Shown: one piece after another, positions 36,822 to 42,973 of the stretch
Position numbering within the stretch: position 1 is the stretch's first letter
Layout of the letters: every line of letters begins with the position of its first letter
The notes under the pieces: model-generated
Told to the model about the DNA's origin: nothing
Database searches by the model: none
What the model saw: only the letters and a program-made list of their open reading frames with translations
Program-made: the position numbers and the translations under genes
Assembly (NCBI GenBank): GCA_947460345.1
Contig: CANHGM010000003.1
Coordinates: 62,001-126,000 of the forward strand
Length of the DNA stretch: 64,000 bases
Direction of reading: 5' to 3'
Origin: Bacteroidota bacterium
Lineage (GTDB): Bacteria > Bacteroidota > Bacteroidia > UKL13-3

Positions 36822-38726
36822 TTATTTTAATGTTGAAAGTAATGATTTGATAGGATGATTGGGTTGCAATTTTAACAATCGACTGATGGCTTTTTGCATG
36901 TCTTTGTTTTTGTTTTGCATGTGACAAAGGTCTATATAATTTTCTAAAGCTTTTATATAATCAGGTTCTAAAGCCAATGCTTGCTCGAAACATTTCATAG
37001 CTTCATCAAATTTGTTTTGTGTTTTTAATATATACCCTTTATTACTCCATGCCATAGCTAGCTTTGGTTGTATTGATATAAGCATATTCAATTCTTTTAA
37101 AGCTTCAGTATATTTAATGTTTATTATATACGTTGAAGCTAATTTCTCTCTGAATTCTAAGTTTTTAGGAGCTAAACTTACTGCTTTATTATAATATTTT
37201 TTTGCTTGTATATAGTCTTGCATCACTGAAGACGCTTCCCCTACCCTATAAGCAGACCATGCATCCTTTATAGATGATACATCTATTTTCAATAAATATA
37301 TATCGCTATATTTATTTAATAAAAACAACTGTCTTACTTTGAATGGTAATTGTTGGTCTTTAGTTAATTTATCTATATACAAGCCAGCCGAATCTAAAGT
37401 ATGCTTATGGTTGCCAAATTGCTCAAATGCATTGAGCCAAGCTGTTGCCCTTGAATGGTTGCTCGAAGTTGGATTGTTTATACACCTTAACCCCCTAAAA
37501 ACAATTTCTGCAGTTTTGTCTTCAACTTTTTTATTTGGTTTGCGTATATAATGATCGTGGACGGTTACATGTGGTATATCTCCAGTACCACTTTTAGGCA
37601 TATGGCATTGAACACAATTATCATTTAATTTATCTCGAACTTTTTTGCTTTCTTTACATATATCTGTTTGATGACATTTGATACAAGCGTTATTAAATAT
37701 AGCTGTTCCTGTTTTTTTAACTGACACATGCGGGTTGTGACAATTGATACAAGTTAAATTATTTTTAGTAGTTTGGTTGCTCTTAATAAAACAGGCACTT
37801 TGTTGAAGCCTTTGTGCATGTGATGCCATGATAAATTGATTGCCCCCATCATATTCTGGTGCATATACATCTATATATTCGTTAAGCTTCATTCCTGGCC
37901 TAAAACTGTTCCAATCTTTGCCTTCGTGCAATACAGCATTGCCCTGCAAATGACAACGTTGACACACATCTACTTGTCTGTCCCATGGAAGTTTTTTAGG
38001 ATTAACAATAGTATAATCTATATCATTTTGCGTATTGACTATAATTCCATTTTTCTTTTCTTCTACATGAATACTACCCGGCCCATGACAACGCTCGCAA
38101 CTAATGCCTTTGGGTATTTTAGTAAATTTATTTTCACTCCCATTTTCATATTCAGGAAGTGAATTGTGACACGACATACATTCATAACCAATGATGCGTG
38201 AAAATCTAGAATTATTGCCATTTTCAAAACCGGGGGGCAAATCCCATTTCTTAGCTTGCGTATAAAATGTTAATGGGGCCTGATAAAGATAGCCGTTTAC
38301 TTGAAATAAATGAGAATTGGTATGATGGCCTGATCCAATCACATAATCAATTTTTTCTTGCCTTTTATATACAGTGTCTGTATTATCAAGTCTGTATTCT
38401 AATATAAATAATTGTTTGTTTTCAAATTTTGCTACATAGTACATTTGATTGGAAGCGTCATAAACTGGTTTAAAGCTATGAAACTCCCCTACCGATTTTT
38501 CTTGAGTAGCATCTCCGAATGATTGCCCCATTCCGGTCTCTGTAAAAGATTTATATTTATCAGCATGACATTCTTTACATGCCTCACCTCCTATATATTT
38601 GGCACTATCTGAGTGATTTCTATATATATAAACATCATCTTGTTTTTTTTGATTACAAGCATCATGCACCACTAACCACAGCAGCCAAACAAAAGTAAAA
38701 ATAAATATTGATGATAATTTATTCAT
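36822..38726 (-). CDS. Seven-haem c-type cytochrome with C-terminal TPRs
   Basis: A 634-residue exported protein. The N-terminus has a hydrophobic segment ending VVHDACNQ, which may be a lipoprotein signal although the lipobox is imperfect. Seven CXXCH haem-binding motifs lie between residues 50 and 380: CKECH, CMSCH, CERCH, CQRCH, CINCH, CIKCH and CVQCH. From about 480 to 634 there are at least three TPRs (SVMQDYIQAKKYYNKAVSLA, and AWSNKGYILKTQNKFDEAMK). Electron transfer in the periplasm is expected. The arrangement resembles cytochrome c554-like or DmsE-like multihaem proteins joined to TPRs. No partner reductase is in the window. The gene shares a palindromic promoter region with the divergent WD40 gene. 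Confidence 0.92.
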   Translation of the reverse strand: MNKLSSIFIFTFVWLLWLVVHDACNQKKQDDVYIYRNHSDSAKYIGGEACKECHADKYKSFTETGMGQSFGDATQEKSVGEFHSFKPVYDASNQMYYVAKFENKQLFILEYRLDNTDTVYKRQEKIDYVIGSGHHTNSHLFQVNGYLYQAPLTFYTQAKKWDLPPGFENGNNSRFSRIIGYECMSCHNSLPEYENGSENKFTKIPKGISCERCHGPGSIHVEEKKNGIIVNTQNDIDYTIVNPKKLPWDRQVDVCQRCHLQGNAVLHEGKDWNSFRPGMKLNEYIDVYAPEYDGGNQFIMASHAQRLQQSACFIKSNQTTKNNLTCINCHNPHVSVKKTGTAIFNNACIKCHQTDICKESKKVRDKLNDNCVQCHMPKSGTGDIPHVTVHDHYIRKPNKKVEDKTAEIVFRGLRCINNPTSSNHSRATAWLNAFEQFGNHKHTLDSAGLYIDKLTKDQQLPFKVRQLFLLNKYSDIYLLKIDVSSIKDAWSAYRVGEASSVMQDYIQAKKYYNKAVSLAPKNLEFREKLASTYIINIKYTEALKELNMLISIQPKLAMAWSNKGYILKTQNKFDEAMKCFEQALALEPDYIKALENYIDLCHMQNKNKDMQKAISRLLKLQPNHPIKSLLSTLK

Positions 38727-39857: not shown

Positions 39858-41099
39858 TTAACTCTCGAATTCGTTTTGAAGAATTTGTTTCAATTCTTTA
39901 ATGGTTTCTTCTTCAAGTTCAGTTCTTCTCACTAGATCTTCATCAGAAGTATTTAATACCGCTTTAGCAGTATCTAAACCAATACCTTTCAACTCATCTA
40001 AAATCCAGCTATCAATTTCATCAGCAAATTCTTCCAAATCAATATCAAAGTCTTCTTCTTCTGTTTCGCGATATACATCTATTTCATAACCTACTAGTTT
40101 ACCTGCAAGTTTGATATTGTGTCCACCTTTACCAATAGCTAAAGAAACTTGGTCAGGTTTTAAATATACTGCAATACGTTTCTTATCTTCATCAACTTGA
40201 ACACTGCTAATTTTAGCTGGGCTTAAAGCTCTACTAACCAATAATGGTAAGTTTGAAGTATAATTAATTACATCTATATTTTCGTTTTTCAATTCTCTAA
40301 CGATACCATGAATACGTGAACCTTTCATACCCACACAAGCACCTACTGGGTCAATTCTATCATCATAACTTTCAACAGCTATTTTTGCTCTTTCGCCTGG
40401 TTCTCTTACAATTTTCTTAATGGTAATTAAACCATCAATAATTTCAGGTACTTCTAGTTCTAACATTCTTTCTAAAAACACAGGTGCAGTTCTAGACAAA
40501 ATAATTTTAGGACTGCCATTAACCATTTCTACTTTATAAACAACAGCTTTTAAGTTGTCACCTTTTTTATAGAAATCTTCAGGAATCATTTCTTTTTTAG
40601 GCAATGAAAGTTCGTTACCGTCTTCATCAAGCACCATCAATTCATTTTTCCAAATTTGGTACACTTCACCATTGGTAATAAGTTCACCTACGCGGTCTTT
40701 ATACTTTTTGTACAATTCATCTTTCTCTAATTCAAGAATTCTTGACATTAATGTTTGACGAGCGGTAAGAATAGCTCTTCTGCCAAACACAGCCATCGGA
40801 ACTTCTTCAACACACTCATCACCAACTTCTAAACTTGGATCCACTTTTAAAGCGTCAGCAAGTTCAATTTCTAACAAAGTAGAATAACAATCGTCATCGT
40901 CTACAACTGTTCTGTTACGGTATATTTCTAAGTCACCATTTTGGTCATTTATAACCACGTCAAAGGTTTCGTCAGTACCAAATTTCTTTTTAATCATTTG
41001 GCGAAACACGTCTTCAACCACACGAATCATGGTTACACGGTCGATGTTTTTGAGCTCTTTAAACTCAGAAAACGATTCAATTAGGCCTTCACTATGCAT
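39858..41099 (-). CDS. nusA: Transcription termination/antitermination factor NusA
   Basis: A 413-residue RNA-polymerase-associated factor that promotes pausing and intrinsic termination. The N-terminal domain includes IDRVTMIRVVEDVFRQM and the later REIL-type helix. An S1 domain lies at about 135-200 (GEVYQIWKNELMVLDEDG). The two KH domains contain DPVGACVGMKGSRIHGIV and SLAIGKGGHNIKLA. A short acidic linker and one C-terminal helix-hairpin-helix-like segment (ELKGIGLDTAKAVL) end the protein, without the duplicated repeats of E. coli. It lies 18 bases downstream of rimP, the conserved bacterial order. The leader of this operon contains an intrinsic terminator. Confidence 0.96.
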   Translation of the reverse strand: MHSEGLIESFSEFKELKNIDRVTMIRVVEDVFRQMIKKKFGTDETFDVVINDQNGDLEIYRNRTVVDDDDCYSTLLEIELADALKVDPSLEVGDECVEEVPMAVFGRRAILTARQTLMSRILELEKDELYKKYKDRVGELITNGEVYQIWKNELMVLDEDGNELSLPKKEMIPEDFYKKGDNLKAVVYKVEMVNGSPKIILSRTAPVFLERMLELEVPEIIDGLITIKKIVREPGERAKIAVESYDDRIDPVGACVGMKGSRIHGIVRELKNENIDVINYTSNLPLLVSRALSPAKISSVQVDEDKKRIAVYLKPDQVSLAIGKGGHNIKLAGKLVGYEIDVYRETEEEDFDIDLEEFADEIDSWILDELKGIGLDTAKAVLNTSDEDLVRRTELEEETIKELKQILQNEFES

Positions 41100-41117: not shown

Positions 41118-41585
41118 TTAATTAAAACTGATTACTACGATAGATTCTTTTATATCTTCAAAAGGTATTTCAATATCTGGTTTTGGTTTGCGTTTGGTAA
41201 GCAAATTGGTTATTTTTTCACCTAAAACAATACTTGACTCTTTTACCTCTTTTAGATTATTAGTTACTTGTTTATCGTCATTTAATGTCACTTCTATTTT
41301 TCTTCCTATATGTTTTTTGTACTGTCTAATAAACTTCAAAGGTTTGTCTGCACCGGGGCTACCTACTTCTAAAGCATAAGGATGACCAGGCATAACTGCT
41401 TCTAATTGCTCGTCAACAAACCTACTTACATCTGCACATCTATATATATTTATTCCATCGTCAGCATCTAAAAATATTTGTATTTTTTCGCCTGTCTTAT
41501 GGTGTTTTATTTGATATATAAAAGCATCCGTGCCTTTTATAGCCTCGTTTACCCAATCAGTAATTTTTAATTCTATGTCTGTCAT
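41118..41585 (-). CDS. rimP: Ribosome maturation factor RimP
   Basis: A 155-residue factor needed for 30S subunit assembly. The N-terminal domain includes KIQIFLDADDGINIYRCADVS, where DxDxGI..DC is the family signature. The motif LEVGSPGADKPLK (usually SPGxxRPL) sits at the domain boundary, followed by a small Sm-like C-terminal domain. It is the first gene of the rimP-nusA operon. The ATG lies about 60 bases after the predicted transcription start, and a terminator hairpin lies between them. Confidence 0.93.
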   Translation of the reverse strand: MTDIELKITDWVNEAIKGTDAFIYQIKHHKTGEKIQIFLDADDGINIYRCADVSRFVDEQLEAVMPGHPYALEVGSPGADKPLKFIRQYKKHIGRKIEVTLNDDKQVTNNLKEVKESSIVLGEKITNLLTKRKPKPDIEIPFEDIKESIVVISFN

Positions 41586-41600
41586 GCTTAAATTAGTTCA

Positions 41601-41624
41601 ATAAAAAAGGGGCTTATGGCCCCT
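41601..41624 (-). terminator. Intrinsic terminator in the rimP-nusA leader (candidate attenuator)
   Basis: On the minus strand AGGGGC pairs with GCCCCT around a CATAA loop and is followed directly by TTTTTTATT. It lies between the consensus promoter (41652-41681) and the rimP start (41585). No minus-strand gene ends upstream of it, so it is not an ordinary end-of-gene terminator. Confidence 0.82.
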
Positions 41625-41651
41625 CTTAAACATTTCCTATTTTTTACGCTA

Positions 41652-41681
41652 CAAATATAGGGCATTTTAATTTCAGTTCAA
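41652..41681 (-). promoter_or_regulatory. rimP-nusA promoter
   Basis: On the minus strand TTG (complement of 41679-41681), a 19-bp spacer and TATATTTG (complement of 41652-41659) give a full Bacteroidetes consensus. The predicted start near 41645 leaves about 20 bases before the leader hairpin. Confidence 0.78.
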
Positions 41682-41755
41682 ATATTTTTTTGAATTGCTC
41701 ATATTAAAAGAACTAAATAAAGACAAATTGCACCCACTTATATTAACTACAACCT

Positions 41756-41776: not shown

Positions 41777-42973
41777 ATGCATCCAAGTAAACTCAAAATT
41801 TTAGATTATACCTATGAGCTGCCTAACGACAAAATTGCTCTTTTCCCGTTAGAGGCTCGCGACCAATCTAAACTCTTGGTTTATAAAAACAATCATATAT
41901 ATGAATCTGATTTTAGTCAACTAGTCAAGTATATACAACCGGAAACTTTGTTGGTATTTAATAATACACGGGTCATTAACGCTCGAATTATTATGCATAA
42001 ATCTACTGGAGCTAAAATAGAAATTTTCTGTCTTGAACCTCTTGGCGATTTTCAACTTTCAACTAATAATAACAACCAAAACGCTTGTATTTGGACATGT
42101 TTGGTTGGAAACGCAAAAAAATGGAATGAAGAATATTTAAAATTAAATTTTGGCAACAATCATTTTTTTAAAGCTGAAATAGTTAGTCGTACCGAAGAAT
42201 TTTTCCAAATAAAATTTAGTTGGGATACCCATCAAACATTTTGGGAAATTATTGATATCATTGGCAAACTCCCCTTACCTCCTTATATCAAAAGAGAGGC
42301 AACCCAAGATGACCAAGAAACTTACCAAACAGTATATGCTAAAAACAAAGGTTCTGTTGCTGCCCCCACTGCAGGATTACATTTTACTGAACATGTTTTA
42401 AAACAACTAGAGGACAACAAAATACACATAGACGAAATAACATTACATGTGGGTGCAGGCACTTTTAAACCAGTTAAAGCAGAAACCATGCAAAACCATC
42501 AAATGCATGCTGAATATATATATATAACTAAACAGAACATTGAAAATTTACTAAAACACAACCAAAGAATATGTGTGGGTACAACTTCTTTGAGAACATT
42601 AGAAAGCTTATACTGGATTGGCGTAAAAATATTAAAGAATATTCCTTTGAATGATATATTAGTTTCGCAATGGGATGCCTATGAATTAGAAGGAAATTAT
42701 ACGTATAAAGAATGCTTAGAAGCAATTCATACATATTTAGGTGACGCTGAATATATAAGTGGTAAAACAGAAATATTAATTGCTCCAGGTTACCGTATAA
42801 GAAGTGTTGAAGCCATTATTACAAATTTTCACCAGCCTCAAAGTACCTTATTGTTATTAGTAGCAGCTGTTGTTGGCGAAACTTGGAAACAGATTTATCA
42901 ATATGCGTTAGACAACAATTTTAGGTTTTTAAGCTATGGAGATTCGTCTTTGCTTTATGTCAATAATGAATGA
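41777..42973 (+). CDS. queA: S-adenosylmethionine:tRNA ribosyltransferase-isomerase QueA
   Basis: A 398-residue enzyme that transfers and isomerises the ribosyl part of SAM onto preQ1-tRNA to form epoxyqueuosine at wobble position 34. Conserved landmarks are the opening YTYELPNDKIALFPLEARDQSKLL and NNTRVINARI. Further ones are APTAGLHFTEHVL, ITLHVGAGTFKPV and, near the C-terminus, ITNFHQPQSTLLLLVAA. All are at the expected spacing and the length is slightly above that of E. coli QueA. The last 19 bases overlap the end of the convergent glycosyltransferase gene. No other queuosine gene is in the window. Confidence 0.95.
   Translation: MHPSKLKILDYTYELPNDKIALFPLEARDQSKLLVYKNNHIYESDFSQLVKYIQPETLLVFNNTRVINARIIMHKSTGAKIEIFCLEPLGDFQLSTNNNNQNACIWTCLVGNAKKWNEEYLKLNFGNNHFFKAEIVSRTEEFFQIKFSWDTHQTFWEIIDIIGKLPLPPYIKREATQDDQETYQTVYAKNKGSVAAPTAGLHFTEHVLKQLEDNKIHIDEITLHVGAGTFKPVKAETMQNHQMHAEYIYITKQNIENLLKHNQRICVGTTSLRTLESLYWIGVKILKNIPLNDILVSQWDAYELEGNYTYKECLEAIHTYLGDAEYISGKTEILIAPGYRIRSVEAIITNFHQPQSTLLLLVAAVVGETWKQIYQYALDNNFRFLSYGDSSLLYVNNE

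Follow-up and report, generated by a model that had tools for sequence, protein, structure and literature searches.

The rimP-nusA operon raises the question of why a hairpin and a T run should follow its promoter before the first gene is reached. An earlier note on this DNA had suggested feedback attenuation, with abundant NusA terminating its own message. The arrangement was followed through the 64-kb stretch of DNA under study (the window), through the genome that contains it and across the class Bacteroidia.

Organization of the rimP-nusA locus

All elements of the operon lie on the minus strand. The promoter (41652..41682) comprises TTTG at 41682-41679, a 19-bp spacer and the TAnnTTTG box TATATTTG at 41659-41652, TAnnTTTG being the -7 box of the Bacteroidetes primary sigma factor. 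It is followed by a predicted intrinsic terminator (41603..41627), a 17-nt spacer from the T tract to the start codon (41586..41602), and rimP (41118..41585, ATG at 41585). This order of promoter, hairpin, T run and rimP was described in the earlier note and is confirmed by direct reading. The gene for the ribosome maturation factor RimP was identified from NCBIfam NF002531 (E = 1.2e-29; 103 bits, under the curated cut-off of 123) together with its position before nusA. The identity of nusA (39858..41099), encoding the transcription termination factor, rests on TIGR01953 (E = 5e-112) and the Pfam NusA_N and KH domains. If the TAnnTTTG box is placed at -12 to -5, as in Flavobacterium, transcription is predicted to start near 41647, which puts the beginning of the hairpin at about +24, the end of the T run at about +45 and the rimP ATG at about +63.

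Upstream of the leader lies the divergent queA (41777-42973, plus strand). The nearest upstream gene on the minus strand ends at 42955, 1.3 kb away, and the hairpin is thus not an end-of-gene terminator, as the note had also held. Downstream of nusA comes a convergent gene for a WD40 beta-propeller (39858-38781), and the region 36822-38726 (minus strand) encodes a protein with cytochrome c554/c7-type heme motifs, then TPR repeats.

Structure of the leader hairpin

The core of the terminator, AGGGGC/GCCCCT (41624-41608), is a 6-bp stem that grows to 9 bp (AAGAGGGGC/GCCCCTTTT) through A-U and G-U pairs, enclosing the loop CATAA (41618-41614) and followed by T6 (41608-41603). The hairpin alone has a predicted folding energy of -13.1 kcal/mol, while that of the whole leader is unexceptional (z = -1.45). 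A standard terminator scan of the window did not pick up the hairpin, apparently because the extended stem consumes part of the T run. Its rarity was assessed by scanning the window and ten dinucleotide shuffles for stems that have at least five G-C pairs and lead into a T run. The window has four such strong sites, one of them read on both strands, and the ten shuffles have none; the three sites other than the leader all follow the 3' ends of genes. Throughout the 3.0-Mb genome, the pattern GGGGN{3,9}CCCCTTTT occurs at two places, the rimP leader and one 3' terminator at a gene end. The leader hairpin is beyond chance.

No antiterminator is visible in the ~60-nt leader, in which only the 3' arm is complementary to the GGGGC arm. 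A short open reading frame does run across the hairpin in the window (ATG TTT AAG AGG GGC CAT AAG CCC CTT TTT TAT TGA), but attenuation through a leader peptide can be rejected, as short frames enter the hairpin in 33 of the 89 leaders with a strict hairpin (37%; see below) and in 39% of shuffles.

Conservation across the class Bacteroidia

RimP was found in 55 of the 58 relatives searched, and the regions upstream of their rimP genes show the same order of elements nearly everywhere, mostly GAGGGGAC-loop-GTCCCCTC-T run. Adding leaders from further families gave a set of 105 from about 68 families of the class. Prevalence was determined by gene-anchored search, since a short covariance model misses many true leaders genome-wide. 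A strict hairpin with a G-rich 5' arm, a C-rich 3' arm and a T run was found in 89 of the 105 leaders, compared with 4 of 1050 after shuffling. By eye, several of the 16 failures do show the hairpin or a variant. No obvious hairpin was seen in L131, L135, L144 or the 0.5-Mb genome L099 (family f25). The T run is interrupted in L038, L046 and L053, and also in L105 and L106, which lack rimP. Among further public genomes with enough upstream sequence, a set that takes in Pedobacter, Mucilaginibacter, Sphingobacterium, Crocinitomicaceae, Prolixibacteraceae and Bacteroidales, the element is present in 69 of 73.

Among the strict leaders, a TAnnTTTG box lies 4-48 nt 5' of the hairpin in 82 of 89, compared with 89 of 1780 shuffled windows (5%), and the median distance from the box to the first G-C pair is 23 nt. 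The stem reads GGGGAC/GTCCCC in 57 of the 89. Its pairing survives two-sided changes; for example, the fourth G position can have A-U or C-G in place of G-C, and the position after it C-G or T-G in place of A-U. After the stem, the fraction of T is 0.54-0.98 across nine positions and falls to 0.22-0.35 beyond them. The order expected from the earlier note thus recurs across the class, and a promoter-proximal terminator before rimP-nusA is, given this conservation, a strongly supported prediction.

A covariance model was built from other genomes only and restricted to 43-nt sequences, because mixed loop lengths misplaced gaps in the MAFFT alignment. Although the window's sequence had no part in it, the model finds the window's leader as its best match in the window (E = 0.00036). 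Of the 30 strongest matches fetched among 295 genomes, 28 adjoin rimP. Under a strict whole-genome filter, 167 of the 295 genomes have a match, and the window's own genome has none.

Two loci depart from the common pattern. The rimP leader of Daejeonella sp. JGW-45 (L194) has inverted arms, GAGCCCC..GGGGCTC followed by T7, much like the second of the upstream motifs known from Gammaproteobacteria, and its CCCC..GGGG stem indicates that the 5' arm need not be G-rich in every case. In L092 (G252:C61:49881-49923), conversely, an almost identical GAAGGGGACCGGAAGTCCCC terminator is found close to the end of a gene and without a RimP in the vicinity; the stem is therefore not strictly unique to nusA leaders.

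The gene served by the element

RimP was not detected in 16 of 396 genomes of the class (all at least 95% complete), of which 14 contain nusA. No RimP-like open reading frame occurs in the 1.5 kb upstream of these nusA genes. In 13 of the 14 loci, a GGG..CCC or GGAGG..CCTCC terminator precedes nusA directly. Families f15 (6 genomes), f24 (1) and f62 (3) have the first type, placed after a TAnnTT-type promoter and before nusA itself. The second occurs in family f45 (3 genomes), where the T run is interrupted in two of three, and the same stem variant precedes rimP in a rimP-bearing relative (L219). The fourteenth locus (f72, a single genome) has a AGAGAGAGG/CCTCTCTCT variant before nusA. On the NusA tree, well-supported branches require at least four changes of the rimP-less label. 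It appears that rimP was lost several times in the class (G048, G057, G078, G171, G300 and relatives; L093, L095, L103-L114) and that nusA was kept along with its leader terminator.

As for infB, it comes after nusA in several relatives but is unlinked to it in the window's genome, lying on another contig (G000:C20:22838-24580), and can be set aside as the tracked gene; the 237-nt stretch upstream of it contains no such hairpin. The terminators before nusA in rimP-less genomes, together with the unlinked infB, indicate that the element follows nusA. On this comparative evidence nusA, and neither rimP nor infB, is the gene it tracks, in line with the prediction of NusA feedback. The order of promoter, terminator and gene, its deep conservation and its tracking of nusA are thus supported by comparison of genomes. 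Loss of rimP serves as a natural experiment that points to nusA as the controlled gene, a matter left open by the description of 2010 (Naville and Gautheret, 2010).

Proposed control of read-through

On leaving the TAnnTTTG promoter, the polymerase would make the hairpin almost at once, and would then either release a short RNA of ~45 nt or read through into rimP-nusA. As the leader offers no alternative fold or antiterminator and no conserved peptide, the likely control of read-through is a protein that acts on the elongating polymerase. NusA strengthens intrinsic termination, its own gene is the one tracked, and there is a precedent in B. subtilis, which together make it the best candidate for the sensor: more NusA would give more termination and so less NusA would be made. 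The element is probably the Bacteroidota form of the rimP-leader, in which an intrinsic terminator spans about +24 to +45 of the rimP-nusA transcript and enables NusA to limit its own synthesis. Of the attenuation proposed in the earlier note, the conserved leader terminator and its association with nusA hold good. Termination here would affect part of the transcripts, with NusA as its putative effector. A bolder version can be offered tentatively, in which the element is a class-wide minimal nusA attenuator placed ~24 nt after the start, its GGGGAC/GTCCCC stem is recognised specifically by NusA, NusA senses itself on newly escaped polymerase, and the whole is kept when rimP is lost.

Alternatively, the terminator may simply let a constant fraction of transcripts from a strong promoter pass, with no feedback. 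Such a fixed attenuator would suit a ~60-nt leader that has neither antiterminator nor sensor domain, and a stem and T run alone can tune the efficiency of termination. It is nevertheless unlikely, as a single stem sequence predominates beyond the needs of a generic terminator and NusA feedback has been reported at the equivalent B. subtilis leader (PMC12288461). Another factor (Rho/NusG, a cold-shock protein or a growth-rate signal) could also set read-through, NusA being merely the target gene. The E. coli operon is indeed cold-induced and has the terminators t1 and t2 before rimP, but the leader shows neither a binding site nor an alternative fold, and NusA is the sole candidate with a reported precedent at an equivalent leader, making control by another factor rather improbable. 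That RimP is the sensor, regulating its own operon through the conserved stem to which it would bind, a feedback raised as a possibility by Naville and Gautheret (PMC2965389) and in keeping with the usual position of the element directly 5' of rimP, is very improbable, as the element is kept before nusA in lineages without detectable rimP. Finally, the hairpin ends 17 nt from the ATG and initiation in Bacteroidetes is described as tuned by secondary structure (PMC6847099), yet a structure controlling translation or stabilising the mRNA, with an incidental T run, can practically be dismissed, as a nine-position T tract that starts right after the stem and then drops to background is the hallmark of intrinsic termination.

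Relation to known leaders

The rimP-leader (Rfam RF01770) is known as a widespread attenuator, called the most ubiquitous by its authors, who describe a short GGGc..gCCC terminator that has a T stretch, lies 4-130 nt from the gene and lacks an antiterminator, and propose NusA as the best candidate for its regulator (Naville and Gautheret, 2010; PMC2965389). The window's element resembles it in operon, in position within the 5' UTR, in the G-rich 5' and C-rich 3' arms, in the T stretch and in the absence of an antiterminator; its GGGGC..GCCCC stem and T6, 17 nt from the ATG, fall within that description. It differs in that the Bacteroidota core is mostly GGGGAC..GTCCCC, ~23 nt past a TAnnTTTG box. 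In the window, RF01770 is not among matches listed at E <= 5, and Rfam families give only weak matches, all far below their gathering scores. The RF01770 gathering threshold was reached in none of 198 genomes of the class, and the four sub-threshold loci that were fetched contain no RimP. Bacteroidetes are named nowhere in the main text of the rimP-leader paper (PMC2965389).

The novelty that the earlier note had claimed for Bacteroidetes holds only in part. The attenuator family was known (PMC2965389), and a structured element in the transcribed region 5' of rimP, which is conserved in Flavobacteriaceae and has no Rfam match, has been listed in Flavobacterium psychrophilum (PMC9723704). The listing gives neither structure nor mechanism for that element, which is likened to the window's hairpin by description only. 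No other description of a Bacteroidetes rimP leader was found in the literature searched, which covered non-subscription papers. If NusA feedback is true, a core transcription factor is controlled in the same way in Bacteroidota, which have a different promoter code and no Shine-Dalgarno sequences; as a reporter of NusA activity, the 60-nt leader would be both natural and minimal.

In E. coli, the metY-rimP-nusA-infB operon contains GGGC..GCCC and T7 just 5' of rimP, with the arms oriented as in the window, and expression of NusA is described as repressing the operon (PMC2965389). Its leader, however, has the tandem terminators t1 and t2, a tRNA gene and several promoters, whereas the window has one promoter and one terminator. 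In the nusA operon leader of B. subtilis, NusA-stimulated intrinsic termination is reported to limit nusA transcription (Mondal et al., 2016; PMC12288461). The B. subtilis rimP leader is ~180 nt long (PMC2965389), against ~60 nt here, where NusA would act in the same way. Thus, the rimP-leader family and, for B. subtilis, feedback attenuation by NusA were already on record (PMC2965389; PMC12288461), and what is new here is the class-wide anatomy missed by Rfam RF01770, together with a test of which gene is served.
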